A stretch of 64,000 nt of DNA, from contig NC_092673.1 in assembly GCF_964355755.1 (NCBI RefSeq), positions 33,427,648-33,491,647 on the forward strand, given 5' to 3'. Every line of letters starts with the position of its first letter. Position 1 is the first letter of the stretch. The stretch comes from Antedon mediterranea. Taxonomy: Eukaryota > Echinodermata > Crinoidea > Comatulida > Antedonidae. Position numbers and translations under genes: made by a program. Shown here piece after piece: positions 6,201-44,014 of this stretch. Below the pieces are notes generated by a model. It did not search any database. It worked only from the letters and a program-made list of their open reading frames with translations, and was not told where the DNA came from.

Positions 6201-9200
6201 CTACGACCTCATATGGAGAGTTATAGAGACATGATGAGAGCTGATCTTCCTTACGATGGCAATGTATGTATTTTCTACAAACAAAAAATATTGTAGTACA
6301 GGCATTCAACAGTCCCTTTATTCACCTCTTTTTTTAATTACCGTAGTATGATTGCTTAATATGATAATTTTATATTTACATTTAGTCACGGTTAATGCGA
6401 GATGCGCAGCGTTCACAGAATCTGGTTGGTCAAGTGATGCATCTCATCAGTCATGTGTACCATTCGCTCTCCGACTGCGGTTCAAATATGACATCACCAC
6501 CACCAAGAAACCTACGAGTACCGCAGACAGGACCACCGGTTCCAATACAGGTACTGTGGTACACAGTTATACTGTAGCACATTAATTTACCTTGGTTTAT
6601 GATAGGTTAATATTTTCATGTGTCAAAATATTGTATTTTGTTAATGCCTGGCAAAACAATAGACTCACTTCAACCTCTATAATATAATTTTAGGTAATAA
6701 TTAGTATGTAAAAAAGATTTTCAATTAAATAACAATAGTCGCTAGGTGGTTGCATTTGCTGCAGGATTTTTAATTTGCAGACTGAACAGGAAAGTATCTC
6801 AGAAATATTCTGTTTGCCATTTCTACCCTTCTGTTTCAGAGCCATTATAAGCTTACAGCTATGATTACATTTTGACTAAATATTAGTTTTTTATTCTGCT
6901 TTTTCAATTAAAAAATTATACTGTACTACTAATAAGAATGTGAAATTAGGGATTTCATTGTTTTTTGTTTTAGATTAGTCTACCGCCCGCAATATTTGCC
7001 TTCAATGGTTCAAGACAAGGGGGAAATAATCAGCAATCTAGAGACATCAATGCCAACCAGACCATGCCACCAGGACAAGACCAAAACCACAACCAAACCG
7101 GAGAAGCTGCAGCCTCTCAGGCTTCAGCATCTACCCCTGAATCAAGCAGCACAACAGGTTCCTCAACCACAACATCAACACCTACTGCTGCAACAACCAG
7201 ACCAACAACAACAGCTAGCACCACTAACCCTAGAGTCTCAAACATGGTTGTGTCAAACACCCAGACGATTGTTATCTCACCTCAGGGGATATCAAACATT
7301 CCTGGTCCTCCACCAAGGATGATGGGGGCACAGCAGCCGCAAGGAGCATTTGGTAGGGGTGTAATAAGACCCGGAAGAGGCGGTGGTAGTAATGGAGGTA
7401 AGCGACAAGTTACATTAAGCATTAATACTCAGAATGTGATGTAAAACTCTGTAAGGTAAATTAAATGTTTTACTAAAGCTCTGTCTGCACTATCAAACTT
7501 TATGTGACAAAAAAATGTGATATGCCCATATATGGACATGATGATGTCATATCACTACCATATTTAAGCATATTACTACCATATTTGGGCACATCACACT
7601 TTTTTTGTCAAAATAGTTTGATAGTGTAGACAGAGCTTTAAATCTAAATTGTGATTAACTCTTTCCAGGAGCTTCAATACATATACATCAAGTTCCGCAT
7701 CAAGGTGGACCAATCACACCGCAGGTTATGTCGGCTCTAATGGGGGCCATTTCAGGCCAACTACCAGGTGTACAAATGACCGGAATTCGGTCGAATTTAG
7801 GCCCAATTGGATCTAGGCCAAATTCAGGCCCAGCTGGAGCTAGGCCCAATTCAGGATCTAGATTTCATTTAGGTCCTAGGCCTGCTTCAAGTTCTGGTGG
7901 ACCTCGGCCGTCTATGAGTCCTGGTTTGTCTGTACCTGCTTCAAGTCCTGCTGGACCTAGACCAGCGTCAAGTCCTGCACCGGCTTCAAGTTCAAATGCA
8001 AGTGCTACCACAGCATCTAGTGAACAAGGAGCGCAACCAAGTGGTACGTATCTTGTAACTCTTGAATGATAAATAAGATATTTATAGTAAGGCCCAACTT
8101 ATGCCTATTTCACGCTCAGACCGCTAATCTTAAAAGTTAATTTCAATGTGTTCACACCATCTACCTTGTAGACTTATTTAATTTACTGTGCCTGTTATAG
8201 TTATGTTGCTCATTTTGCTAGTAAGTTTTTTCACAAATGGCAAATGTTTGGCACTGGGTAAAAAAGAAAATAGCCTAATTACCTGTATCTCAATTCAAGG
8301 CCGTACGTCAAAACTAAAAGGCGGATCTTTATCCCGATTATTGACTCTTTTTAATCCTGGCGGAAGTGTCAACTCTCTGATTGCTCTTGTTTTTTTTTAA
8401 CTTGCCACCAGTAGGCAGCAGATCAAGCACTACCACTACCAGCACCAATTCAACCAGTAGCTCTACCAGTTCCAGGTCACAGACAGCACCAACAGGTGCA
8501 AACCAACAAAGAGCTCATTCACCATTAGGAATGTTTAATCTGCTTTCCGGTAACGGTAATTCGTTTGATGCGTTTTTACCTTGTCAATCACGCCACATTC
8601 CAAGTCAGTCTCAAGGGACCAGGCCAGCACCAGCCCCGAGCTCAAATGTAGGACCAGTAAGTATATAACATTGGTCAATTTTTGACATTCTGGAAAAGGC
8701 AACACCACTCACAGTATCAAACATTCTTTTAATTAATTTTTCTAAATAGTTTACTATTATTTTTTTGTTTTACTGTATTTTAGTAATTTTTTTACCCTGC
8801 TTCTGAGATCCATTTGAACTCCAGAGCCCCTTGTTTTAGCCAGTGAGTGCTCGTATCCGTTTGGCCACTGGTTCTATGTTATAATTACCTGAAATCATTA
8901 TATATCATTTTTATTATGACCTGAATGTACTTATTTTACTATCGGTATTTTTCTTGATCTTAGCAAGGCCTTTGATACAATTGATCATAACATTCTCTTG
9001 AGAAAACTTGAATTCTATGGTATCAGAGGCCTTGCTCTTAATTTTTTTAGGAACTACCTAGGCAACCGTAAACAATTTGTCTCAGTTAAATCCTACTTTT
9101 CTTCTCATTCTAAAATTACATGTGGTGTTCCACATGGCTCTATACTTGGACCTTTACTATTTTTAATTTATGTTAATGACTTACCTAATTCCTCTTCCCT

Positions 9201-12200
9201 CTTAAATTGTGTTCTTTTTGCTGATGACACTAACATTTTTTTTTCACACAAAAATATTACTGAACTTGTGCAAACTACAAATAATGAATTAGTTAAGATT
9301 TCCAATTGGCTCAATTTAAATAAATTATCTTTGAATATTAATAAAACTAACTATATTTTTTTAAATTATAAAATAAAAAATATAGACTCTGTTGTTATTA
9401 AAATTAATGATAGTGTAATCAAACAAGTTAATGAAACAAAATTTCTCGGTGTTTTCCTAGACTCAAAGTTATCCTGGCAGTCCCATCGTAATAATATTTC
9501 AAATATAATTTCTAGAAACTTTGGAATAATGAATAAACTAAAGCACTATCTCCCACAGCACATTCTTTTATCTTTATATAACACCTTAGTTTTACCCTAT
9601 ATTAATTATTGTAACATATCTTGGGCTACCACAATTGATAAATTTCTTTACTTGTGTCCCTGGACGAGTCCTGAAGCAACCAATATTGACAACATCTTCA
9701 AACTACAAAAACGTGCTATCAGGATTTGTGCAGGGTCAACCAGAATAGCTCACACCAAAAACTTATTTAATAAATTTAATATACTTAATGTATTTGATTT
9801 ACACAAATTACAAACTTATATTTTTATGTATCGTCTAAAAAATCACTCTTTACCAAATCATATTATTTCTTTATTTCCTAAACAACAACCTGATAAATTC
9901 ACAATTACAATACAAGATTTGCTAAAACAAATATTTTATCTGAAAAGCATACATTTCATTTAAGAAGAAAATCGATTTTTTATAACAGTCCAAAAATATG
10001 GAATTTATTAAGTATTTCATTAAAATCTCTTCCTAATCTACTTTTGTTCATCATTCGCGGTACTATATACGTACCATTTATTTGTATCAACAACAAAATA
10101 ATACAGTATTTCTTTCACAAGAATATTTCTATAAACTTATTTGATACAAAACGGGTATGCAATGAGCCGAAGCTCTTAAACGCATTACCCTATAATACAG
10201 ATATCTAATTAGCAAATAAAACAATAAAAGTACAAATAGAAATAAAAAGTAAAAGTAACAAAAGTGAACTCTACATGAGTGAGTATTTATTTATTAATAA
10301 TTGTTGTATTTCCTTTTTAAATTTTCCGATTTTAGTTTCACACTTTATGTTTTCAGGTAAACGGTTCCAAATATTTGCCCCTCTATAGGCAATACTTCTT
10401 TGTCCTATATTTGTTCTTTTTAGAGGAATACGGAAATCACTCTTCTTCCGCGTACCATACTCATGTACAGATTCCATTTTTGTAAAAAAAGAGTTAAATG
10501 AAACTGGTAAATTGCCCATACGGAATTGAAACATAAATACAGCAGTGTACTTTTCATACAAGTCAAAAATATTCAATAGGTTTTTGTTATAGAATAAATT
10601 TGCTGATGGATGCTGATAATGCACTTTACATATAATTCTGATCGCTCGTTTTTGAAGTATATGTATTCTCTGTAGCTTTGTTGCCCCCGCAACTCCCCAA
10701 ATAGTTATTGCATATATTAGGTGAGGTAAAATTAACGAGTTGTACATTATTAACAAAACATCTGATTGAACAATATATTTAAGTTTGTTCATTACACCAA
10801 TGACCCTTGCAATTTTCATAGTAATGATATCTATGTGATCATGGAATGTTACAAACTCATCAAGAATGACACCTAAGAACTTAATTTTACTAACTCTTTC
10901 AATTTCAACATCATTAATAAATAAAGTATAGTTATTGGTATCTTTTTTCTTATACATGCTTCTAAATTCGATAAACTTGGTCTTCTTTGTATTCAGACTC
11001 AATTTGTTTGCAGTAAACCAATCACTTAATTTACTTAATTCTGTATTTAAAGTGTTAATTAAAAGGTTTATATCTTTGTGCTTAAAAAATACGTTAGTAT
11101 CGTCAGCAAAAATGACAAATTCTAAATATTTACTACTTTCAACAATGTCATTTGTATAAATTATAAAAAGTAACGGCCCAAGAATTGAGCCTTGTGGTAC
11201 TCCATATTCAATCAGTTTTAATTCTGATTTACAATTTCCCATGTGAACATATTGTTTTCTCATATATAAGTAGCTCTTAAACCATTCAAGAACAATGCCC
11301 CGAATACCATAAAATTTGAGTTTTTGTAAGAGAATCTCATGATCTATCGTATCAAATGCCTTAGAAAGGTCTAGGAAGACGCCGATACTTATCATTTGTT
11401 CATCTATTGCTGAAGTAATTTTTTCTATTGTTTGTGAAAGTGCATGACTCGTAGAGTGGTTTTTTCGAAAACCAAACTGTGATTTATTAATGATGTTAAG
11501 TTTGTCAAGGTATTGAGTCGTTTGATCATACACAACTCTTTCATAAATTTTAGAAATACAAGGCAAGACTGAAACAGGTCTATAATTTGTTATGTCATTT
11601 TCATCGCCACCCTTAAATATAGGCACAGTTCTGGCAATCTTTAATTCATCTGGAAAGCAACCAGTTGTCAATGATATATTAACAATATGTTTAATCGGTA
11701 TTGTTAGGCATTGCGAAAATGGTTTAATATAACGAGCACCAATTCCATCATTACCAGGTGACTTACTTATATCTAGATTATCAATATATTTCTTAATGTC
11801 ATGTTCATTTACTGGCCTAATAAACATAGAATTGGCGTAATTGCCAGACATTAACGTTAGTGGATCTATTCTATTACTTCTTTTATTTTTTAGATCAGTT
11901 GCTATATTTTTGCCAATATTAATAAAATATGAATTCATTGCTTCCGCTTGATCTTGTTCATTGTTGTAATAGTTTGTATTTAAGAACATCTTTGACGGTT
12001 TTCCCGAATTGTAATTTTTTCCTAATAAATTGTTAATATTTCGCCATGTTTTTTTAGAGTTATTTTTATTTTTCTCAAATTCTTCATTCAGGTAATTCGT
12101 TTTTCTTAGTCGTATTAGTTTAGTTAATTTATTTCTGTAGTTAGTGTATCTACTTTTGTTCAAATCTAACCTAAAAAAATCTTTGGTCGCAGCATATGGC

Positions 12201-15200
12201 AGCTAAATCTCCTGTTCTTGTTCTTCTTGTTTCCTTTCTTCTTCCCTTTATTGAATTGAATACCTTATCATATTGTTCATCTTGTAATTGTACTATTGTC
12301 TTAGCAATTTAAGCTTCTGTATTTTTTATGTAAGCCGGACTGCTATTGTATACCTTCATTTTTTTTTTTTTTTAACTGGTGGTCACGACTTAAAGTTGTC
12401 CGCAACTTATTTTGACCTCCATCCGTACATTTTTGATGTTTTTCTTTTATATTGTAATTTTCTTTTTTGCAATTTGTAATTTTTATCTTTTATTTTAAAA
12501 TGTGTGGAGAAACTAATAAAACAAACAAACAAACTTATTTGTAAAATGCTATTTTTTTCTCATATACAGCCTCTACATGGCATATTTCAAGATATTGTTG
12601 GAGCCTTTCAAAACCTGCCCAGCCAACAGCAGCAACAACAGAGCTCTAGGCCTCAGCCAACCACTCCATCAACCACATCACAAGGCACTTCATCAAGTAC
12701 CTCTTCAACCAATTCACAGTCACAGACAAGGGCTCAAGCAAGCTCTATTGCCAATGCTTTTATTGGAACGTTTATGAACCAACAGACAGCAGGTGGAGGT
12801 AAGCTTATGATTAAAAACATAGAGGTGTTTTATATAACTTGAGAGTGAACTAGATATAGCGAAGTGATGCAAACTCAAAATGACCCCTCAAAATGGCAAC
12901 CGTATCTGTTAAAAAATATTAAGATATAAATTGATAATTGAAAAAAAAATACAGTACAGTTTTTATAAAATTATTTATATTATTAATGATAATCAAATTA
13001 ATAATGTTTTGGTTAATGTATAAAGTTGATAAAATACTGACTGGTGTTAATATACTCAACATGATATATTATAATAACTCTATGATTAAACACAATTATG
13101 TGTACCTAATATGGGAATGGAGATGTAGCTATTACTAGTAAATATAGCAGTGTGTTCGGCTTGTTCATATAACACATGTTTTGGTTCACATTTTATAGGA
13201 AGTAATTCATCTGCAGGGGGCAACCCGTTTGCCCAGCTTCTACTGGGAGGAATGGGACAAGGAAGATCGGCAACCGGAACCCCAAATGCGTCAACATCCA
13301 CTGGGAACCAAAACAGATCATCTAGTCAACAAAGTGGCACAACATCAAGCGAAGGTCTCTTAGAATTAATGCAGCAATTTGCACGAAGAACCCCAAATAT
13401 GTCGCCTGGTAGCGGTCCAAACACAGGAAACGGACCCACGTCTTCAAGTCAACAAAGCAACCAAGCGCCCTCAGCTACCGAGACTATGTTTTTTGATTTG
13501 GTGCAAGGGATCTCAGAGCATGTCGCCATGGCTGCAACTGGTCAAGATTCAGCATTGACCATTCATCAATTTTTAAGTGGTCTTGACCAATCTTATGCTG
13601 AGCAGCATGTTGAAGGTACTTTGTTTTTTTTCTATTTTTAGACCTTTCTTTTCATCAGGTTCATCTATTCCCAAATAATGAATACATTTATTAGTACTAT
13701 AATATTTTAGAGTACTACCAAACCCGTAGTCAGGAGGGAGTTGAAGAGTTCGAACAAACCCTTTTTTTCTTAAGTGCCCCTCTTCATACTAGAGACAAGC
13801 ACCGAAGATGCTGGTAAACAAGGCCTAACAAGCTTACCTTACAATGGAAATAACATCCAGATAAAGCTTGACTACAACATTTAAATAATGCCAAAAATAA
13901 CACCCCAACTCCCTATAAAATTTGAATTTCTTTACTTCACTGCATTGTGGGAAATTAACAAAATCTGAAAGTCAGTTGGTTTTATTTAACATTAATGCAT
14001 TTGGAACCAGACCAGCTAGTTCAGTAGTAATTGTACTAAAATACAATACAGTATTTAGTTTATTTTTTTTACAAATGTTTTTACTTAATAGGTTTCTTTT
14101 ACGAGGCATTTGATTATTACGCAAGAAACTTTACGATGACAGATCTGTCGCATCTTATATTTGGACGTTCTGAACCACTCCAGCAAAATCGGCAGAGTCT
14201 TCGTAGATTTGTGAACGAGAAAGTATTAAGAGGGCGACAGCCAAGTGAAGAAAACATTACAGTAGGTTTTTTTTTTCATTTATTTTTTAATATTTTATTT
14301 TTTTATTTAATTAAATTGGTTTAATTAATGTGTGGATTGGGTGTTTGATAGATTGATTTTATGGATTACTAGCTAATTAATACTGTAATGGAATCATTAA
14401 TTGGTTTAATTAATGAATTGACTGATTTTATTTTATTTCTTATTTATCATGCCAGTGATTGAATGAGATTAGTGTGTTCATAGGATTAATAGATTGATTG
14501 TTTTTGTATTGATTTCCATTTATCATGACGTTGAATTCTTTTACAGTTGGCAGTGAATGAGATTGCTTTGGAAGTGATAAACCAACTGGAAGAAGATGCA
14601 CCAGAAATCACAAGTGTCAGAGAAGGGGTTGACATCAAAGCTACTAACCTTAAATTTGTTCAGAGCGCACTCTTAAAAATGGTTAAATACATTCTTGATG
14701 ATCGTAAGTACCTTAGTTGATTACTAAATCTATTCCTGCTTATAATAACTGGCCGTTAGTTATCAATATCACTATTGAATTTGACCGACAATGCTTTTAT
14801 TGAAATGTTGAAAATTAAATTATCATTTTAAACAGAATTATCAAAAACATATTATAGGTAGACCTGTGAGACTATGGGGAAATCTAACAGGAGGAGACTT
14901 AACATGCTTGCCTCTAATCCCAAGGTCCAGGGTTCAATCATGACCTAGTGCCAGAGTTGTAACTCAAATCTTTTAACTCCACTCCCTACGCTTCTAAAGA
15001 GACTTAGTTTATAAGCACACGATAAATTATAAAATAGTTTATCCATCCTGTAAATGGCGAGTTGCTTGATGTTGGATACGTATGCCTATAAACATACTAC
15101 AATAGACCCATTCTTTGAGACAACACCATAAAGGAGCACACTTTTCTGTGAAAGGAATGAGTGGAAATATATGTTTTAAACCTACAGCCAATCCCTGTTC

Positions 15201-20782: not shown

Positions 20783-22153
20783 TTACGCTTCAGTCGCAGA
20801 AGACGCATTGATATCAGAAAGGTCAACATCTTTGTTTTCTGGAGGAGGAGCACCAGTTTCCTCATTAACTTTTGCTGTGTCATCTTCATTTACAGCTTTA
20901 TACTTGTTTTGGACAAATTTCACATAAACCAGATAGCCCAACACTAGAGTACATCCTTCGATAAGCGTGGTAATGGTGATTAACAGAGGCATTCGAGAGA
21001 CAAGATCAGCCTCCGGTTGAGGGTATGCAAATCTGATAACAGTCGTCGCCAGAACACTGTTTTGAATTCCTGTCTCCAGTGCTATTGTGATGGCTTGCTC
21101 ACGCTCTCGTCGTGTGATCTTCGAAATGCCGAAACCAAGTAAGCCGCCTACGAGTGGGTATAGGAAACAAACGAGCCATATCTGCCAGGAACCTTGGAAA
21201 ACGTAAAGATTCGACGGCACACCTAGACCCGTTGAAACAAATATCAGAACATACGCGAACGGTTTTAGGAGACAAAGGCATACGTTTTTAACTTTTGAGA
21301 GTTTGTATCGGATGAAGATTCCTACTAAGGCAGGCGCGACCATCAGCGCAAATTGTTGAATCATTTCCTTAAAAGGCGTTTTTAAAGCTTCGTCACCGTC
21401 AACAAATCTCTCCGCGTAGATAAAGAGATTCAAAGGCATGAAGGCGAGCGCAGCTATCGTTGAACAAAATGTCATTGTTAGGCTTAAGATAAAGTCACAA
21501 TCAAGAAGCAACGTAAATATGTTACTGAACCATCCGCCTGGGCATGACCCCTCGACTAAGAGACCGACGGCAGACTGACGGTTATCTGATAAGATAGCAT
21601 TAGCTAAGCAAAATGCTAACAACGGCATGACGATGAACTGGCATAACATGCCAATAGAAACGCCTACTGGACGTCGAAGATGTCCCCAGATGACCTTCAG
21701 GTCAAGTTTAGTACCCATACTGACGTACGATATCAGTAACCATATTAGAAGAAAATACGTGAAGATGAAATTTAGTATCGTTGGTGTACGTAGAACTTTG
21801 ACGACTTCTTCGAATTCGCTTGATTCAGAGCTAATGATTTTGATGGTTAGGATTTCGACTCCTACAGACAAGCCAATGATGGTGGCATTGAAGGATACGG
21901 TATCTGATGGCAGGACATCCAAGGATATGACGTCAGGTTCCACTGTGAAAACGTGTTGATCCGAACTTTTAAGTTCTATGGTAATGTTGTGTCGTGCTTG
22001 GTCTTGCTTGACGTGGAAGGTAATTGTTTTTGTTAATTTCTCAAATGTTTTGAGAAAGCCTTCATCCATCCCTTCATAGGTAGCTTCCAGAGTATACCCA
22101 TCTACGGGTACAGTCAACGCCATCATAAGAAATGGAATAATTTCTTTAAACAT
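20783..22153 (-). CDS. SLC10-family (P3/SLC10A3-A5-like) sodium/organic anion transporter
   Basis: A single coding exon of 456 residues. Residues 1-19 look like a signal peptide; about 20-122 form an extracellular or lumenal beta-rich domain with two N-glycosylation sequons; from about 125 there are hydrophobic segments typical of the nine-helix bile acid:sodium symporter (BASS) fold. Family signatures are EGSCPGGWFSN (201-211) and ALETGIQNS (358-366), which in characterised members line the sodium and substrate sites. The tail after about 417 is hydrophilic and acidic. The long ectodomain before helix 1 resembles SLC10A3/SLC10A5 rather than SLC10A1/A2. Just before the ATG, the minus strand reads a pyrimidine tract ending in CTTCTAG, so a non-coding 5' exon is likely. 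Substrate cannot be predicted; SLC10A3 in vertebrates is itself an orphan. Confidence 0.9.
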   Translation of the reverse strand: MFKEIIPFLMMALTVPVDGYTLEATYEGMDEGFLKTFEKLTKTITFHVKQDQARHNITIELKSSDQHVFTVEPDVISLDVLPSDTVSFNATIIGLSVGVEILTIKIISSESSEFEEVVKVLRTPTILNFIFTYFLLIWLLISYVSMGTKLDLKVIWGHLRRPVGVSIGMLCQFIVMPLLAFCLANAILSDNRQSAVGLLVEGSCPGGWFSNIFTLLLDCDFILSLTMTFCSTIAALAFMPLNLFIYAERFVDGDEALKTPFKEMIQQFALMVAPALVGIFIRYKLSKVKNVCLCLLKPFAYVLIFVSTGLGVPSNLYVFQGSWQIWLVCFLYPLVGGLLGFGISKITRREREQAITIALETGIQNSVLATTVIRFAYPQPEADLVSRMPLLITITTLIEGCTLVLGYLVYVKFVQNKYKAVNEDDTAKVNEETGAPPPENKDVDLSDINASSATEA

Positions 22154-24441
22154 TCTAGAAGATAAAAAGTAGAAACAAAAATAAATATTTTAATTCTTGT
22201 ATTCCCTTATTATTAAAACCGTATTGATTGTGGAATTCACACAACCACTACAATATACTATTACATGACCGTATACATTTTCCTAGAATTATTTTTTATT
22301 CAATCGTACAGTGACGTAGGCCGATCTTTTAAGAACATTTTACAGTATTTTTTTTTCTGATACCGTTCAGGAGTTACGATTATTTAATTAACATGGTGTC
22401 CTGAAATCCCTTGACACGCTATGTTATTTTTGTTTTTTACGCTCGTCTGGTTACGATTTTTTGTTATCTCTGGAAGATGGCTTCCGTAGCATGAACATGT
22501 ATTATTATTATTATTATTATTATTTCAGAATCTCTGGTGGTCCAAAGAATTCGTATGAATTTAAACAAATTTAAATAAAAGTATTTAAGTGACAGACATA
22601 CTGTGCCTATATTCGTCATTCTGTTTCGTTAAACAATTTATTCTCAATTGGTACTTCTTGTTTTCTTTTCTACGATTTTTAATTTTACCACCAGGCGCAA
22701 AGTTTGCGCGCACGTATACAAGCTGTCATAACTACAGAGTAATTTTAACGCGTCCGTACACGTCACAAACGGTATTATATCCGACAGTTCAATATCGTTT
22801 ACTGAACTTTACTAACCTATGCCGTGGTCCTCGAGGCTTCTTTTAGCCTAGGCATACCGGTACGTTTTCTCCGGGGCACAAAAGTTCAACCAATAACTTG
22901 AAACTAAAGATATGTTTTGAGTTATTTAATCTGCACTCGTTATAATGAAATTATCATATCAAAATGTCACGGTTGTGAATAACAGTGAGCTAAGGTCCTT
23001 TATATTGTGGCACCCATGGGAGCTAAAATTCCCGCAGGCCAAGTATCGTATTGGATTAATATTTCCTATAGACTTACCAAAGAACGAAGTGAAATATAAC
23101 TTATTTAAAGTTATACTTTCCTAATGTATCACTCAAACTAGGTTTGATAATAATAATGTATAATTTTTTAATTTAAATTATTATTATTATTACACAACTA
23201 TTTCGTTTTAGAGAAAGATTACATTATTCATTTTTGTTTTCATTATTTAAATCACAATAATGTATAATATGGAGGGATAGTATGAATATCTTTTATTTTA
23301 CAATTCCTGCTTAGAGTCCAAAGTCCACAATATCGACCGATGTGTGTGTACGCGCGCGTACCAAAGTTTTGACTTAAATACCATTTTCACAACGTTTAGT
23401 ATCGAAGTGAATTATGGTAGGGCACCCACTAAACTAGGCCTATATGTACAGGATTTTTCAGGGACTGACTTATGGTAAGTTTTGTCATACAATTGTTATT
23501 TACGTGTTTGATGTTTTGTGGATAGGCATGTTTTAGAACACGTATAAAGTTAAATGATTCATTGAATTTTCATCGAGTCAGTCAATAACCTATTGAAATT
23601 ACACGGTGTGGTTACATTTTTCTTACATTTAGATTCAGTTTGAACATACAAATTATAACAATAACATAGAGGAGGAACGAAATTGACAGGATAAATTCGT
23701 GTTTTCAAAACGTTACGTTTTAAAGAGTTACTTTTAATCAATATCCTATTATAGGCCCATTATGTTTTTTTACTGTATTTTTTTACGATTGCTCAGTCTA
23801 TTATTAGTTGGATCATATATTTTTCTTCTTATACTTACAACGTAGTGCCAGGAAAACTTTTCATTCATCATGTTCTTAACAATTTCGGGTGAATATCCTT
23901 GCATAGTCCTATAATGTTATTTTTTCAAAATTGAGTAATATAGTTTCGTTGAATTGTTTTGTCATACATAACGATCCAGTTTTATGACACGATATAACTG
24001 GGGTACCGAATAATTGTTTCCTAAATGTCTACGTCAGATGGGTAACCTAAAACATGTTGGTGTTGTTGTTATTTATTATTTGTATACAACTTAATGCATG
24101 ACAAATCTAGAAAATACGTGTATTCAAACGGCTAAAAATCAAAAATTAAAAACGAATATAGCCTACCGCTACATATATTTTTTCATCGCTGGTTCAACAA
24201 CAATTAGCCGCTTCTGTGTTCTGATGTCTATAGGTAAATTATATGATACAGTACCGCCTGTTTCACATGTAACGCGTGGCACATACTATAATAAACAAAC
24301 ATAATACGACGTCACATGTTATGGTGCCTATATTACCGGAGAGTGCCATGTGGAGATGATACAGGGAATCATATACAGTGTAAACCTCTTTTGGGGAAGA
24401 AAATACCGTATTATAATGGTCATCCATAAAATGTTCTTCTT

Positions 24442-35943: not shown

Positions 35944-38900
35944 TTAAACTTCAGTATCTTCACCATCTGAATATTCTCGATTAAGAACTACGTGATCCTG
36001 ATTGTCACTTATTCCATTTTCTACGTTTCCATTTAATTCGCCAGCATCTTCTCCATTTTCCATAAACTTTAAACTGACAGATGATGACCTTTCCTTGACT
36101 TCCTGATCATATTCGTCTTCCTGAACTACCTCCTCTCCCTCGTCATAATCTTGCTTGCTGCTTTGATCGTCATCAAACTCTTCCATGTCGCCTATACCAT
36201 TCAATTGTTCCCAATCTTCTTCGCTTAACTTATTCGCTAAACTTCCTTCCTCGTGCAGTTCCCCATTATTATATTCTGCTTTAATAACCTCCTGTTGTAC
36301 AACGTCTTCTGAAATTACATCCGTCCCAACCGCGTCGCTAGCTGCGCGTTTAACGCTTTCTTCTCGTTTTCGTACAATCTCCTCAGCTTTCCTTTTTGAC
36401 GGTGTTCGCGTCAACGGTGAGCGTTCATGTTCCGGTTCTGGTTCGGACTCTGGGTCTGACTCGGGCTCTTCTTTAACATCTAATGATACGTTAACTTTGT
36501 TAGCAGGAACGTTCTTTTTATATTCACCCGGCATGTTTCCATTACCTATAGGCTTGTAATGCGCTACAATAACATATTTATTTTTGTTCCTCATTTTGGC
36601 TTTAGCGACTCCAAAGTCGGTGGAATTTTTCCAAACCATTTGTGTGAAGTGACTGGTATCTGTGGAACAAAAAAAAAGGCATGCATTAATATCAAATATT
36701 GTTGATTTATTAAATAAATAACCAAAGATGCCAATACAAGATTTTGTGAGATAGCTAGAAACTTGATATTTAGTGTCTTTAATGGGATAGAAAAAGAGAC
36801 AAAAACTGAAGTTTTAGGTTACATCATCCAAGATACGATTGTATTTTATTACACGATGAAGACTAGTCTAGGTTCCATACTTTTTTATATAACAAGATAA
36901 ATATTTTGGCAAACATGACGTTTCATACGTAAAATACTTTATCTCACGAAGAAGCGTGGGGCGTGCAAGTCTAGATATAGACGTTTAACCAATCAGAAAC
37001 AGAGCAGTCAAACAGCACCCGGATGTTAAATATTTTCCGCTCGTCTTTTTGAACGTGTAAGAAACATCAAAAAACGGGCAAAGAACTTAAACTTCTTTGG
37101 AAACATTGTGGAGAAACGAACAATAAAGAAAACAATTATGTTTTATATTGCAAATTTTACCTGGATTTTAAAACTACTTTTTACAAGAGAGATGTCTGTT
37201 ACATGGAGACTGCCACAGACATAGAATGAATGGTGAGTAGGCACTTCATTTTGTATTCAGAATGCCTATGTTAACACTATGGGATATGACCGGTTGGGCC
37301 GCCGACAAGTTGAGCCGCCGGTGATTTCTATGAAACGCCCAGTGCATGCGTCTTTTACGACATTTCGCGTAGTGATTAGGATGTTGTCCTAGCCTAGTAG
37401 CCTACACAAGTTCATGGTCTTGGTTTATTGGTCATGAAAATGAATAATATATAATTACATATTACAATTTACAACAAAGCAAAGGAAAGTAGTAATATTT
37501 AATAATTTAATTGTTTTAATCTTTCGAGGAAAAAATTCAGTGCACTCATAATTTTTCTCGCGTGTAGGCCTAGGCCTACTACCACGTAAAGCTTTACGTG
37601 GTATATATGTTATGCGCGATTTGAACGATTTGCGCAATTTGAAATTGCGCAAAAAAAATCCTTGCGCAATTTGAATTGAAACATGTGTTTCAAATTGCGC
37701 AAGCAACGTATTAAATTGCGCAAGTAATCTGCAAATTGCGCAAGGTTTTTCGACAGATTGTGAAATCATGCACACCCATATTTTTATAGTAATTTCTAAG
37801 AATGATTCAAAATTAAAGATAAATATCGCATTTCCTTATTTTAGTAGTGCAAATATTGTTATAAGTTAGCATACCGTCGAAGAACCGACGAAGGAAAACG
37901 AAGCGGTGGTGTTCCACCAGGCGGGCGCGGCGCGGGCTGCCGGCTATACTACTCTAGCCTAGCTAGGGTCTGGACTACTGATACTGACTAGGTTACATGG
38001 CCTAGCTTAAACTAATATTAAAAACTTAATTTTTACATTTATTTTGATTTATTTCAAGTTACAGTGATAATATTATTTAATTGTAATAATAAATGTTATG
38101 TATTTATTATACACATGTTATCTTCGCATTTATTATGTTTTATTTTGAGTTATTTAGTTTCCAATAAATTATTATAATACCCATTGTCTGGTAGAATTTT
38201 GTTGCGCAATTTGAAAATTTACAGTTCGTTTTCAAATTGCGCAAAGGTGTCATATTGCGCAAGAACTATCTTGCGCAATTTACAAATTGTGCAGCGCAAT
38301 TTAAAATTGCGCAAAGATTTTCTTGCGCAATTTGAAATTGCGCAAGTTGATTGCGCAATTTGAAATTGCGCAAAAAAATCCTTGCGCAATTTTAAATTGC
38401 GCAAGAATTCTTTGCGCAATTTTAAATTGCGCAAGAATTTTTTTGCGCAATTTCAAATTGCGCAAATCGTTCAAATCGCGCATAACATATAGTTAGTAGG
38501 CCTACACGCGAGAAAAATTAAGTCACGTTGTCTCTCAGGACTAATTAATAGAGTATTAACATTCTTCGAATGAGGTTAAATAAATACTATTTTTTATTTA
38601 CTAATCTTTTAATATAATATTTTATTGAATTTTACAATTTTAATACACAAAATATTTTACTAAAAAACGTGATTTTATGTAATTATTTTACCGAAAAATG
38701 GAGTAGGCCTAGCCTAGTTCATACAACTGCCGACTGCTGAGGGGCAACATGTTTACGTCATTTTTGGCTAAAAACGATCACTTTCGGTGATATATATTTT
38801 GGAATCTACAAGCAAGATTTTCATAATTATTTAAATATAATATTTAATAATGTATATACTAAAAACCATGATATATAAACTTTTGAATGTACATCGTTAT

Positions 38901-41900
38901 CCCTATATATAAATAGAACGAGCACCGGCGGAAAGTTAGCATTTGGCGTTCCATAGAAATAACGTTTTTCTGGCGGCGGCTCAAAATTGTCGGCGGCTCA
39001 ACTTGGCCTAATCCAAAACTATGTGACCGTGCCGAACATGTTGATGGCGTAGGCTAATTCGCTGACCTGACACCGGGTCAGACTACTTTAAGCATAGCCT
39101 ACATACACAGGGCCTAGAAACATATCCTAATTAATTACTGAGAATTTAATAGACCGCTCCTAAACTGCTGTCATTGGCGCTAATGACAAATAGTATATTT
39201 GAAAAGTACGTTTTAAGAAACCTAATAGGCCTAGCCTAGGCTAGGCCCTATTTTTGTACGTCAAAACAAATTTCATATCAGGCCTAGCTAGCCCAGGCCT
39301 AGGCTAATTCGTCTAACCTCGTTCAAATACTTACTATATTGCCACATAGGCATGTCAAACTTGTAGGCATCTACTTCTTCAAGCCACGATTCCACAACCT
39401 GACTTCCAGACACATTTTCTTTGTCTTCGGTTATCAAAATATTCTCACCATAAACTAATAATATACAAACATAAAAATAATACAATTATTAAAATCGATG
39501 TGTGGTGTTAAAAATGGCTTAATATTTGTTGTTTATTAATATAATTACAACCCAATGACGTTTCGATTAAATCTTTTTTTAACAATAAATTGTACTGGTG
39601 AAGGGGTAGTTTTGCCCGCTTGCTCTGTTAATTGTTCTTTGTTTTACGTTATCGTTTTGATTTAGCTTTTTGCTTATTTTATTTTGTACTCCATTGAGAT
39701 CCAGCCACGGATACGTACCCACACCATTATCAGTTTTCAATAATGTGCCTTTGGATTTAATAAATCGTAATCAATTAAATTAATTCATTATACATATCTG
39801 GTTAATACAGTAACTTAAACCACTGATAAGTTGTGATTAGGCCTACAGGTATTTTATTATCAGTCAATGAGTAGGTGTACTGTATAAAACTTAGATGATG
39901 AGGATTTAGCCAAAACTGATAGAGTAAGGTCTACCGCGGAATTAAAAACATGTTTGAAAGATAGTGTTCACAAACTTGTTAGAGCTGTGCATTATGCAGT
40001 ATTATGATTGATTTGTGGGAGCCAGTTAGTATTTGCCTCCAATAGAAACTAAGAAAACATCAAAGATAATGCAAAACTCTAAGTATAGTATAATAAGAAA
40101 CAAAAGTGAAAAGATTGCCAATATTAGGGTCATTCTTTGTCTTAAGTTTGATAGGGAAAATAATAGGTAAATAATATATAATCACCTCTATTTTCACTAT
40201 GTTGTAAATATCCTTTGTTTGCCAGTTTTTTTGCCCATTCTTTAGCAGTGGTGGCAGCGTCATCAGACCAGTTCATTTGTGGAATACCAAATTCCTCTCG
40301 CACTGTATTATGAGCCGTCAGACAGGCTGATTGAAACTTGTTGGCTAAAATTAGAAAAATGAAGAGAAAAAATGTTGTAATTACAAACAGAAACTATTGG
40401 TTGTTAGGGAGTTTTAGGGACAGTCCTTTGGTTGTTATGGAATTTAGGGACAGTCCTTCTTCTGATTAGCGATCACTTTCAGAACAAACGTTTTACACTT
40501 TGTAGATGGTTTAGTATTCTTTGAGTACTTTTGAACGACCTTTATAGCGACCACTTTTATTTATTTTCCTTAAATTATTTCACTTAATAAATAATAAGTC
40601 TTTCCTTTCCATTAAATTGAATTTATTTGGATAGGATATTTGTTTAATTTTAAGGGTAGCCCAAGTGTGAATGGTGAATACGGCCACTACTGTCTTTAAA
40701 TTTCGAATTTAAATTACTTTAGGAAAGCTTTTTTCTAACTAGCGATCACTTTCGGAACGAATGTTCTAAACCTCTTCGAGAGTTTAGTCTCTACTTGTTG
40801 AATAATCTTTTTCTAATTAGCGACCAGTTTTTTTTCTCGGATATTTCGCGTGTCAAGTTTAACGTCGGATTTCACCTGCTCAGAACCGTGGTATTATGAA
40901 CGCCTTGGTTTGGAGAGAATAATGCAAATTACTCAAGACTATTAGGAATAAACCACTTCATATACATGATGCATTCGTTGTTATTTATTTAATCATAGTA
41001 GCAATCAACTGATTTTACTACTGTTGTAATTTGATTGATATAGCAAATTAACATCATGATTTCTCTGACAATTTTATCAATATACTGTACATAGCAGCAC
41101 GTAATCATGTAGAAAGCTCAGGCGTCGGAGGAGCAATTTCATATTCGAGTATTATTATCCTTCATAATTTGGTCTCCACATGTTTACCATTTGCTTATTA
41201 ATTTTACAAACGATACGCAGTTAATGGTTCATAAAGCTGGAAATAGGTATAATTGCATTGGTGTACTAGTTATTAACGGTTCAAACTTCAGTCAGCCGCG
41301 GTAACAGCAGGTTGATGGGCCTTGGTCACGAAACAGTGTAGAACGTAGTTAAATCCCTATTTAGGCCTAACTTTGTAAAAAAAAAAAGATAGGTATAAAT
41401 AATATAAAGCCTACGACAAAAGTGCAAATGTGATAATCAAACGTATATTTTATATAGACAATTGTACATTTTTTTAACATATAGGTATGGTCGCCCTTGT
41501 TACAATAAACTACCGGTAATTCAATCTCAGCTTGATATACATACACACACATACTTCGGATCGAAATGCAAAGAACAAAATGTTTTAATAATTTTGCTTG
41601 TAACTGTAGCTTGTTTAATAAAGATATATGTAGCTTTGTATAAACAGATAATACAGTAAACATCTTACATTTAAATTACATTGTACAACATTCCTCCTTT
41701 GTTCAACAGTAAATTAACATAAAAACAGAACTTACTGTACAAGTAAATGCAAAGCTATATAGCTGATTATTATTATGGTCATTATGGACATGCTTGATAT
41801 TACCAACACCTTACAGTACATTACTGATAAATACACCCAATGGTATAATACCATTTAGTCAGCCTTAAGCAGTAGCCTACACTCAAAGTACACCAGACTC

Positions 41901-44014
41901 ATTACATTAATATACACATACTAGACAACCAACATCAGTGACGTCACGAAGGATACGCAGCCGATGCGCGCGCATGACGTTGAAATCTGCGCGTGCGTTA
42001 ACTGTATGTCCCACATTTTTTCACTGACGATTTGCATACATACCGTATAGATAATAGGATTATTAGAAAACATATTGTTTGTATACAATAATTACTCCAT
42101 AAAAACGTTTATCGCCGTGTTAAAATGCATAAACATAAATTATCTAAATGGAGCTATTATTTACGTATGCATATGCAAAATAACTGTATAACTATAATCT
42201 TGTTTTTAAGAGAAAAGGATGCATGTGCTGTGCTTTCAAAGTGTGTGTATTCATTTAGCCCTAGAATACAAGCAGTTTGAAAATAAGTTCTTACGCTTTG
42301 GTGTGTTATCCTCTGTTTCTGGAGGCTGGAAAATAATATAAATATATTTATTATGAAAATATTAATAGCCTATTAAAACCAGTAGTATACTCTGATTTTC
42401 TAATATCATAATTTATATTCATAAATTGCGAAATCGAACAATTAATGTTGTTCTCCAAAATGCAAAAACAGAGAACCATTCCTTTGGTTCGGTGGACACT
42501 GCTATTGAGAGGACATTTTCCCGTGGAACGAATGAGAGGAAATAAGTGTTTTGAACTCTATGGCCAATCCTTATTCAGAGAACACCGCATTATAAAGGGT
42601 TATCAAACGAAAAATACATAAAATATTATTCTGTTGGTAGATCATTGTTTAATATCTCATATGATTTTAACTGCCAGCATCTTTCCCAAATATATTTTAA
42701 CATGTTTAGTGTTGTGAATTGTAAGGCCGGTTAATATGTATTATTCTGTTTCAAACGTGTGTAAAGAGTTGTTAAATAGCAGTTGATTGTTGAGTAGTCT
42801 GTTGCCGTAACATTGTGTGTTTTCACACGCCATAGTGCCAAAAAAGTCAATGGATTATGGTCCTGATCTCAATTAATTGTCCTTCATTGTCTTCTACGTT
42901 TTATTAATTAATAGTGTTTGTTTTTGTAATTGTGGTCGGGAAGATATTTAAACACCAATTATATAGGAGTTATTTAAGTTTTAAGGACGATAATGAGGCC
43001 TGAAGAGAGATGATAATGAGAATGTTAGGAAAGTGGAAGTTTCTAAACGAATTTTTTATTGGAAAAGAACTTATTTTCCAAAATGAAATATGATTAAAAT
43101 AAATAATTATTTACAGACCTACTTTATACAGTAAATCCGATATTATAATTCTGTAGGCCTACCTGAGGAATGTCCTCGGGAAATACAAATATTGTAGGAA
43201 TAGCAGTATGTTTAAGACGAGTTTTTCCTTTATACATTTCAAAATTATCTGGAGTAAAATGTCTGGAGCACAACAGTGTCCTTGCTTTTGGCATCCACTT
43301 GCCCACATTCATGTTCATTACCCATATCCACAGTCTGTTTGAGTCTCGGTGGGGAAATCTAAAAAGACGATCATTCATACATTTCAGCATTATATAATAT
43401 CCTGTTAATCGTTGGCGGTAAACGCTTAACAGACTCTTGCAGAACTAAGATTGTTTGGCCAAAGGAACCGTAGTCTATTATTTTATTTAAGTCAAACCTT
43501 GTGAGCTCAGACCTACTCTAGGCCTACCTTATATTTGAATAAAATGTATAGGATACCGTATTCTAACAAGAAGCAACTAGCCCTTTTAAAATGGTTTATA
43601 TATACGTACTGTCATAGCTTACTCATGTCACCTAGGCAAAGACAATCACAACAGCTATTCGGTAACATTAGACTTTCTACCACAAAATTAACAGCTTTGT
43701 TAGTTTAGTTTTAGTATTATACAGTACATTGTTGTCGGTTGGTTATTTTCCTTTTTTTTAAATTAATGACGAATTCACATTCTATATAAACTCCATGACT
43801 ATCAGTTAAAGATATTTCTATCTCCCATCAGTGTTGAAGTTAGCCCAGACAACTATCAGACATTTGTATTTTATAGATCTAAACACAATCGTTACATTGT
43901 GCAATGTGAAATTAGATGAAAGACGGTGCCTTACCTGTGGAACGTAATTCCTTTCTCTCTAGGTATAGTCTTATCATGGTATTTACAACCCTGAGCTGAA
44001 CACTGTAATGGCAT
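35944..44014 (-). CDS. THAP-CAP fusion protein with acidic tail, six coding exons
   Basis: Exons (5' to 3'): 44014-43935, 43358-43163, 42325-42295, 40344-40186, 39454-39335, 36659-35944. All are GT-AG with matching phases (2,0,1,1,1), giving 433 residues. Residues 1-92 are a THAP C2CH zinc finger starting at its own Met: C5, C10, C57, H60, W37 and the closing AIPTIF (79-84). After a short linker, 104 to about 250 form a CAP/SCP domain of the GAPR-1/GLIPR2 type: AHNTVRE, TSHFTQMVWKNSTDFG and YVIVAHYKPIGN, with tetrad H151, E159, E182 and H199 present and no signal peptide. The tail is strongly acidic, with a basic stretch SKRKAEEIVRKREESVKR (283-300) and SUMO-consensus VKEE (K258) and IKAE (K322). 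Inference: a nuclear DNA-binding protein whose CAP domain acts in dimerisation or ligand binding. I know of no described THAP-CAP protein. Confidence 0.88.
37289..39013. mobile_element. Layered inverted-repeat element with TTGCGCAA boxes (THAP-CAP intron 5)
   Basis: The outer arms are 37289-37344 and 38958-39013, inverted, sharing CCGCCGACAAGTTGAGCCGC and TTTCTATGAAACGCC-like sequence. The inner arms start at 37549 and end at 38520, sharing AATTTTTCTCGCGTGTAGGC and GTTATGCGCGATTTGAACGA. Inside the inner arms are clusters of palindromic TTGCGCAA boxes, about 6 on the left (37629-37743) and about 15 on the right (38198-38465), often paired as TTGCGCAATTT / AAATTGCGCAA. No transposase was recognised. 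The structure resembles a foldback transposon with repeated subterminal protein-binding sites (inference). Confidence 0.7.

Follow-up and report, generated by a model that had tools for sequence, protein, structure and literature searches.

Results

The window analysed here, a stretch of 64,000 nucleotides (C4:33427648-33491647), carries on its minus strand a predicted gene of six exons between positions 44014 and 35944, whose 1302 nt encode 433 residues followed by a stop codon. An earlier note on this DNA had read these exons as a single open frame, and this is borne out in full: GT-AG borders are found at all junctions of the six-exon model, every exon joins in phase, and no internal stop interrupts the frame. 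Exon 1 (43935-44014) supplies the start codon and the first part of a THAP-like N terminus (residues 1-26 plus two bases, including C5 and C10), while the remainder of the THAP domain (C57, H60 and the AIPTIF motif), up to residue 92, lies on exon 2 (43163-43358), which ends in phase 0. Exon 3 (42295-42325), a 31-nt linker that runs from phase 0 to phase 1 and encodes PPETEDNTPK, is the least certain of the six. The CAP domain is spread over exon 4 (40186-40344; first part, including H151), exon 5 (39335-39454; second part, including E159 and E182) and exon 6 (35944-36659; third part, including H199), the last of which continues through an acidic tail (residues 248-433) to the stop codon. Elsewhere in the window, a BAG6-like guess for plus-strand exons at 7-13 kb was discarded, with no Pfam match in three frames and no PDB match in one.

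The exons differ considerably in how well they score, where splice scores come from generic matrices and coding scores from a codon model built from other frames. Exon 6 has a coding score of 48.7 bits over 237 codons and the exon 1 donor scores 8.6, whereas low values are seen at the acceptors of exon 2 (-3.2), exon 5 (-4.0) and exon 3 (-0.6) and at the exon 3 donor (0.4); codon use is slightly negative for both THAP exons (-0.7 for exon 1 and -8.6 for exon 2). Because they fall inside domains, junction 1/2 in the THAP half and junctions 4/5 and 5/6 in the CAP half are supported by homology. The fusion itself hinges solely on junctions 2/3 and 3/4, neither of which has such support.

The N-terminal THAP zinc finger is canonical, as the earlier note had it. 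THAP fingers bind DNA and share the signature C-x(2-4)-C-x(35-53)-C-x2-H together with an AVPTIF-like motif; here the complete Pfam profile (1-87 of 87) aligns to residues 5-84 with 60.8 bits against a cut-off of 23.9, the C2CH ligands are C5, C10, C57 and H60, and the motif reads AIPTIF. The best solved relatives of this half are human THAP2 (49.7 bits) and THAP1 (48.8 and 45.5 bits). THAP proteins often, if not always, carry a C-terminal coiled coil and an HCF-1-binding motif; a search of the 433-residue protein for the latter, (D/E)HxY, returned none. The C-terminal coiled coil is also described in the passages used of a survey of THAP genes (PMC13228809).

An intron at FHR|FP interrupts the THAP half, and sequences related to it are abundant in the genome, which comprises 354 Mb in 18 contigs and is almost wholly contained in 11 of them, each of 22-41 Mb. 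A search of this assembly for mitochondrial COX1 returned no match. THAP matches occur in at least 75 places, including a repeated family with 141-residue open frames that is 39-40% identical to the THAP half. These repeated copies are what a THAP domain of P-element or Harbinger type, captured by a GLIPR2-like gene, would call for, and a P-element-type transposase origin had indeed been put forward in the earlier note. The remaining evidence argues against it, however: among the matches listed outside the gene's own locus, identity to the THAP half is just 24-46% and no close copy is present; THAP matches in the repeated copies fall within one frame, whereas the THAP half is intron-split; and in a small tree of 17 rows the THAP half groups with human THAP2 (support 86/85), on a long branch and away from the repeated copies. 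Pfam, moreover, finds solely the THAP and CAP domains above cut-off in the predicted protein, and no transposase domain. With identities this low and the THAP2 grouping, the THAP half is no recent transposon copy, and we rejected recent capture; the transposon-capture scenario as a whole appears very improbable. None of the evidence indicates a transposon origin of the THAP half, though an old one is conceivable. The FHR|FP intron appears to match one of human THAP1 in position and phase, and is not clearly present in six other split THAP loci (L006-L010 and L025), three of which (L006, L008 and L009) are split near R-C-A. The tree used 14 of the 21 fetched THAP loci; left out were L019 and, their matches being short, L006-L010 and L025. 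The THAP half forms its longest end branch (1.72), and the stem of the pair L020/L011 is longer still (2.74), so that a long branch is nothing peculiar to the THAP-CAP gene.

The CAP half is equally well defined. Pfam places the domain at residues 111-230 (68.9 bits against a cut-off of 21.1; profile 1-117 of 117), and alignment to GAPR-1 (1smb) shows H151, E159, E182 and H199 all kept, four residues that we take to be the His-Glu-Glu-His tetrad of CAP proteins. The earlier assignment of a CAP domain with a full tetrad thus holds, and so does its likening to GLIPR2, since the best solved relative is GAPR-1 itself (74.2 bits), ahead of Pry1 (67.7 and 65.4 bits), plant PR-1 (58.1 bits), CRISP-type chains (at most 42.8 bits) and GLIPR1 (24.2 bits). 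By sequence, then, the CAP half is of the GAPR-1/GLIPR2 type. Its one cysteine, C110, is also the only one in the protein after residue 57, and there is no Cys-rich C-terminal domain. CAP domains are normally extracellular or located on the Golgi, and GAPR-1 begins with an N-terminal start bearing a myristoylation site. Besides having a single cysteine in its CAP half, the model differs from secreted CAP proteins in that it has no signal sequence, since it starts with THAP, an N-terminal feature that hinges on the fused model; nor does it have a GAPR-1-like start of its own, as no ATG precedes the CAP core in the exon 4 frame. In a CAP tree of seven rows, two of them paralogues with the middle exon missing, the CAP half is again the longest end branch (2.09), and all four inner branches are unsupported.

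The remaining 186 residues (248-433), of which 56 are acidic and 19 basic, form an acidic tail. The earlier note had described a basic NLS-like stretch and two SUMO-consensus sites within it. The acidic character and nuclear look of the tail stand, but the basic patch at residues 284-301 (KRK...KR) is merely bipartite-like, and the monopartite motif K-K/R-X-K/R does not occur in the protein. Both SUMO-type sites are present (VKEE at 257 and IKAE at 321), but two or more are also found in 6% of 10,000 shuffled tails, which makes their number unremarkable. A genome search with 184 tail residues returned a match at the gene's own locus alone. Since exon 6 encodes both the end of the CAP domain and the tail, the combination of a CAP protein and a nuclear-looking tail is secure as far as the open frame goes, irrespective of the THAP exons.

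Are the two halves one gene? The earlier note had answered yes, arguing chiefly that the 31-nt exon fits both neighbours in phase. One gene is still the reading that economy favours, but this main argument proves weak. The intron between the halves holds 15 in-phase, stop-free microexon candidates, among which exon 3 ranks second by splice score, and an in-phase microexon that scores equally well or better is present in 97.5% of 200 random stretches matched in length. A positive coding score is reached by 2 of the 15 candidates, namely exon 3 and its own sub-fragment; of 5000 stop-free 30-nt pieces drawn at random, 2.2% attain the score of exon 3. When splice and coding criteria are combined, an equally good microexon appears in 56, 108 or 120 of 300 random stretches, depending on which of three training sets is used, counts that are possibly inflated by real exons within those stretches. 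Taken together, these rates make the linker compatible with a fusion and weak as proof of one.

The missing start is a better argument for one gene than the linker. The CAP core begins right at the exon 4 acceptor, and the frame upstream runs into a stop without meeting an ATG. If the locus instead held two neighbours on the same strand, a short THAP-only gene made of exons 1 and 2 or terminating within intron 2, and a GAPR-1-type gene whose tail looks nuclear, the latter would need a first exon as yet unseen. The gap between the halves offers three candidates that fit the CAP frame with a donor of at least 0.4, the score of exon 3, in a search that covered this gap and donors of that strength; 100 random stretches hold 4.2 such exons on average. 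Two of the three, MVLYHWVYLSVMY and the one starting MFTVLSVYTK..., score below zero for coding, and the third comprises just two codons. Two genes would nonetheless accommodate the statistical weakness of the linker, and exon 2, if read through, continues for 12 more codons before a stop and is followed by an AATAAA 64 nt further on, at 43060, so that a THAP-only transcript is possible; this hexamer is a common signal here, at about 2.1 per kb. At least one frame of the GAPR-1-type tandem cluster described below (locus L001, near 9464) also carries an ATG of its own immediately ahead of the CAP core. On balance we regard two separate genes as unlikely, if well short of negligible. It is also conceivable that the halves are joined in some transcripts only, through a read-through chimera or an alternative promoter, giving the THAP-CAP fusion alongside a CAP-only or THAP-only product; the middling splice sites that flank exon 3 and the AATAAA or ATTAAA signals within the introns would agree with this, but the gap yielded no alternative first exon of coding character, and we hold such partial joining to be improbable. 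A THAP-CAP fusion in one form or another, by contrast with complete separation of the halves, is probable. That the gene forms the longest end branch in both trees would fit a single fast-evolving protein, an agreement that is only suggestive.

Paralogues within the same genome place the CAP half in context. Among the matches listed, the closest belong to a tandem cluster of GAPR-1-type genes on the same chromosome, 2.5 Mb away (C4:30.957-30.966 Mb), with 32-52% identity to the CAP half, exon by exon. Read by eye, the introns of the cluster genes comprise one in phase 1 after YSG and another just before HFT, whereas those of the THAP-CAP gene lie inside HSENR|VYGEN and, three codons ahead of the HFT histidine, within a codon; since the patterns differ, the CAP half is no fresh copy of a cluster gene. 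The acidic tail is absent from the CAP-end frames of the cluster paralogues, some of which may run on into untraced exons. Among the matches listed, which are lower bounds, no THAP match lies beside the CAP cluster, and none elsewhere lies within 600 kb of a CAP match, so the pairing of the two domains has no backing from a second copy. Nor was a retrocopy of the spliced gene seen: searches with each half gave, among the matches listed, the exons of the locus itself and diverged paralogues.

Discussion

In light of these results we lean, with some reserve, toward a single host gene for a nuclear THAP protein, equipped with a CAP partner-binding or oligomerisation module and an acidic tail, that would have been born by the joining of a THAP and a GAPR-1-type gene. 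Such a gene could have originated when a THAP2/THAP1-like exon pair became attached to a GAPR-1-type gene by way of the phase-1 intron that immediately precedes the CAP core, an event possibly followed by fast divergence of both halves. In the protein, for which we infer a joint transcript and a nuclear location, the N-terminal finger would bind DNA at a short site, the CAP domain of GAPR-1 type might replace the usual THAP coiled coil as a dimerising, partner-binding or zinc- or lipid-responsive module, and the long acidic tail, possibly SUMOylated, could contact co-regulators.

The role suggested for the CAP domain draws on what has been described for its relatives. GAPR-1 dimerises, according to the passages used of PMC7554809, and forms zinc-dependent oligomers through His54 and His103, according to those of PMC6900432; the counterparts of both histidines are kept here as H151 and H199. 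Two further sources offer precedents closer to transcription: a fungal CAP protein, and likewise its isolated CAP domain, showed autoactivation (on data that the paper does not present), for which its authors suggested a transcriptional role (PMC8544888), and the mosquito CAP protein AAEL011795, described as having no DNA-binding motif, figures in a discussion of proteins potentially bound at promoters (PMC3464256). It is from these dimers, zinc oligomers and precedents that we read the CAP domain as a partner-binding or oligomerising module, and the gene as encoding a THAP protein specific to its lineage, with a GAPR-1-type domain that would bind partners or form oligomers. A more specific version, in which a nuclear CAP domain sits within a sequence-specific DNA-binding protein and its zinc- and lipid-sensitive self-association, a property known from GAPR-1, switches occupancy of THAP sites, is speculative and in our estimate unlikely.

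Set against known systems, the predicted protein resembles GAPR-1/GLIPR2 in its intact tetrad and lack of a Cys-rich hinge, but differs in having a THAP domain in place of the N-terminal start and in its long acidic tail. With human THAP1 and THAP2 it shares the C2CH ligands, the AIPTIF motif and the N-terminal position of the finger, but here the finger is linked to a CAP domain and the HCF-1-binding motif is missing. The joining of THAP to an unrelated domain recalls C. elegans CTBP-1 and other THAP fusions. The passages used of PMC13228809 describe THAP genes as numerous in echinoderms, with assorted partner domains, and count 51 in one sea cucumber, where the partners include LdhA, Lectin_C, PCC, SAP30 and RING-type/zinc-finger domains and the LdhA fusion is likened to CTBP-1. 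CAP-related terms do not occur in the main text of that paper, and the partners found in other echinoderms, such as the feather star Anneissia japonica, lie outside these passages; a THAP-CAP gene may therefore be present in Anneissia japonica or other surveyed species. In the parts used of two other papers, THAP and SCP proteins appear as separate transcripts (PMC3204972) and nothing on zinc fingers was found (PMC7694928). Among the papers listed in full-text searches, judged by titles and the starts of abstracts and drawn mostly from non-subscription literature, none describes THAP and CAP in one protein, and predicted proteomes may already contain such a combination unremarked.

We regard the architecture as new and as built from two known families. 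To our knowledge no transcription factor of the CAP family has been known so far, and this protein, if the proposed reading is true, would be the first. Its CAP domain would then be linked to a finger that binds DNA, and its behaviour readable by promoter occupancy and reporter assays, and CAP would join the list of domains acquired by animal THAP genes.

A Widespread Palindromic Repeat in Intron 5

Intron 5 of the THAP-CAP model, which separates exon 5 (39454-39335) from exon 6 (36659-35944), carries a palindromic element composed of GCGCAATTT-type repeats at 37549-38520, whose inverted arms match over 24 nt at 100% and over 57 nt at 98%. When its outer 112 bases were used as a genome query, at least 43 matches were returned, the element itself included (40 of 722 candidates scored), and the intron therefore houses a widespread repeat.

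Related THAP and CAP Loci

Among the THAP matches listed genome-wide, at least seven, distributed over six chromosomes, share a 141-residue open frame. One member of this set lies at 1448-1870 of L012, a THAP locus elsewhere in the genome, where THAP is the sole domain recognized by Pfam. Separately, on the same chromosome as the window, L001 (G000:C4:30956500-30966400) holds a cluster in which at least four CAP genes of the GAPR-1 type stand in tandem, a count based on four matched first CAP exons.

Other Open Frames in the Window

Two reverse transcriptase frames of opposite direction, at 8920-9960 (plus strand; RVT_1, 79.9 bits) and 10274-12202 (minus strand; RVT_1, 128 bits), are flanked by plus-strand Pro/Gln/Ser-rich frames and look LINE-like by eye. 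Low-complexity open frames span 6974-13641 on the plus strand and look BAG6-like by eye; three of them found no match in Pfam, and one used as a PDB query likewise found none. On the minus strand, a single open frame of 468 residues at 20786-22189 scores 119.1 bits against SBF, the family of sodium/bile acid symporters, and is one we take to be SLC10-like.
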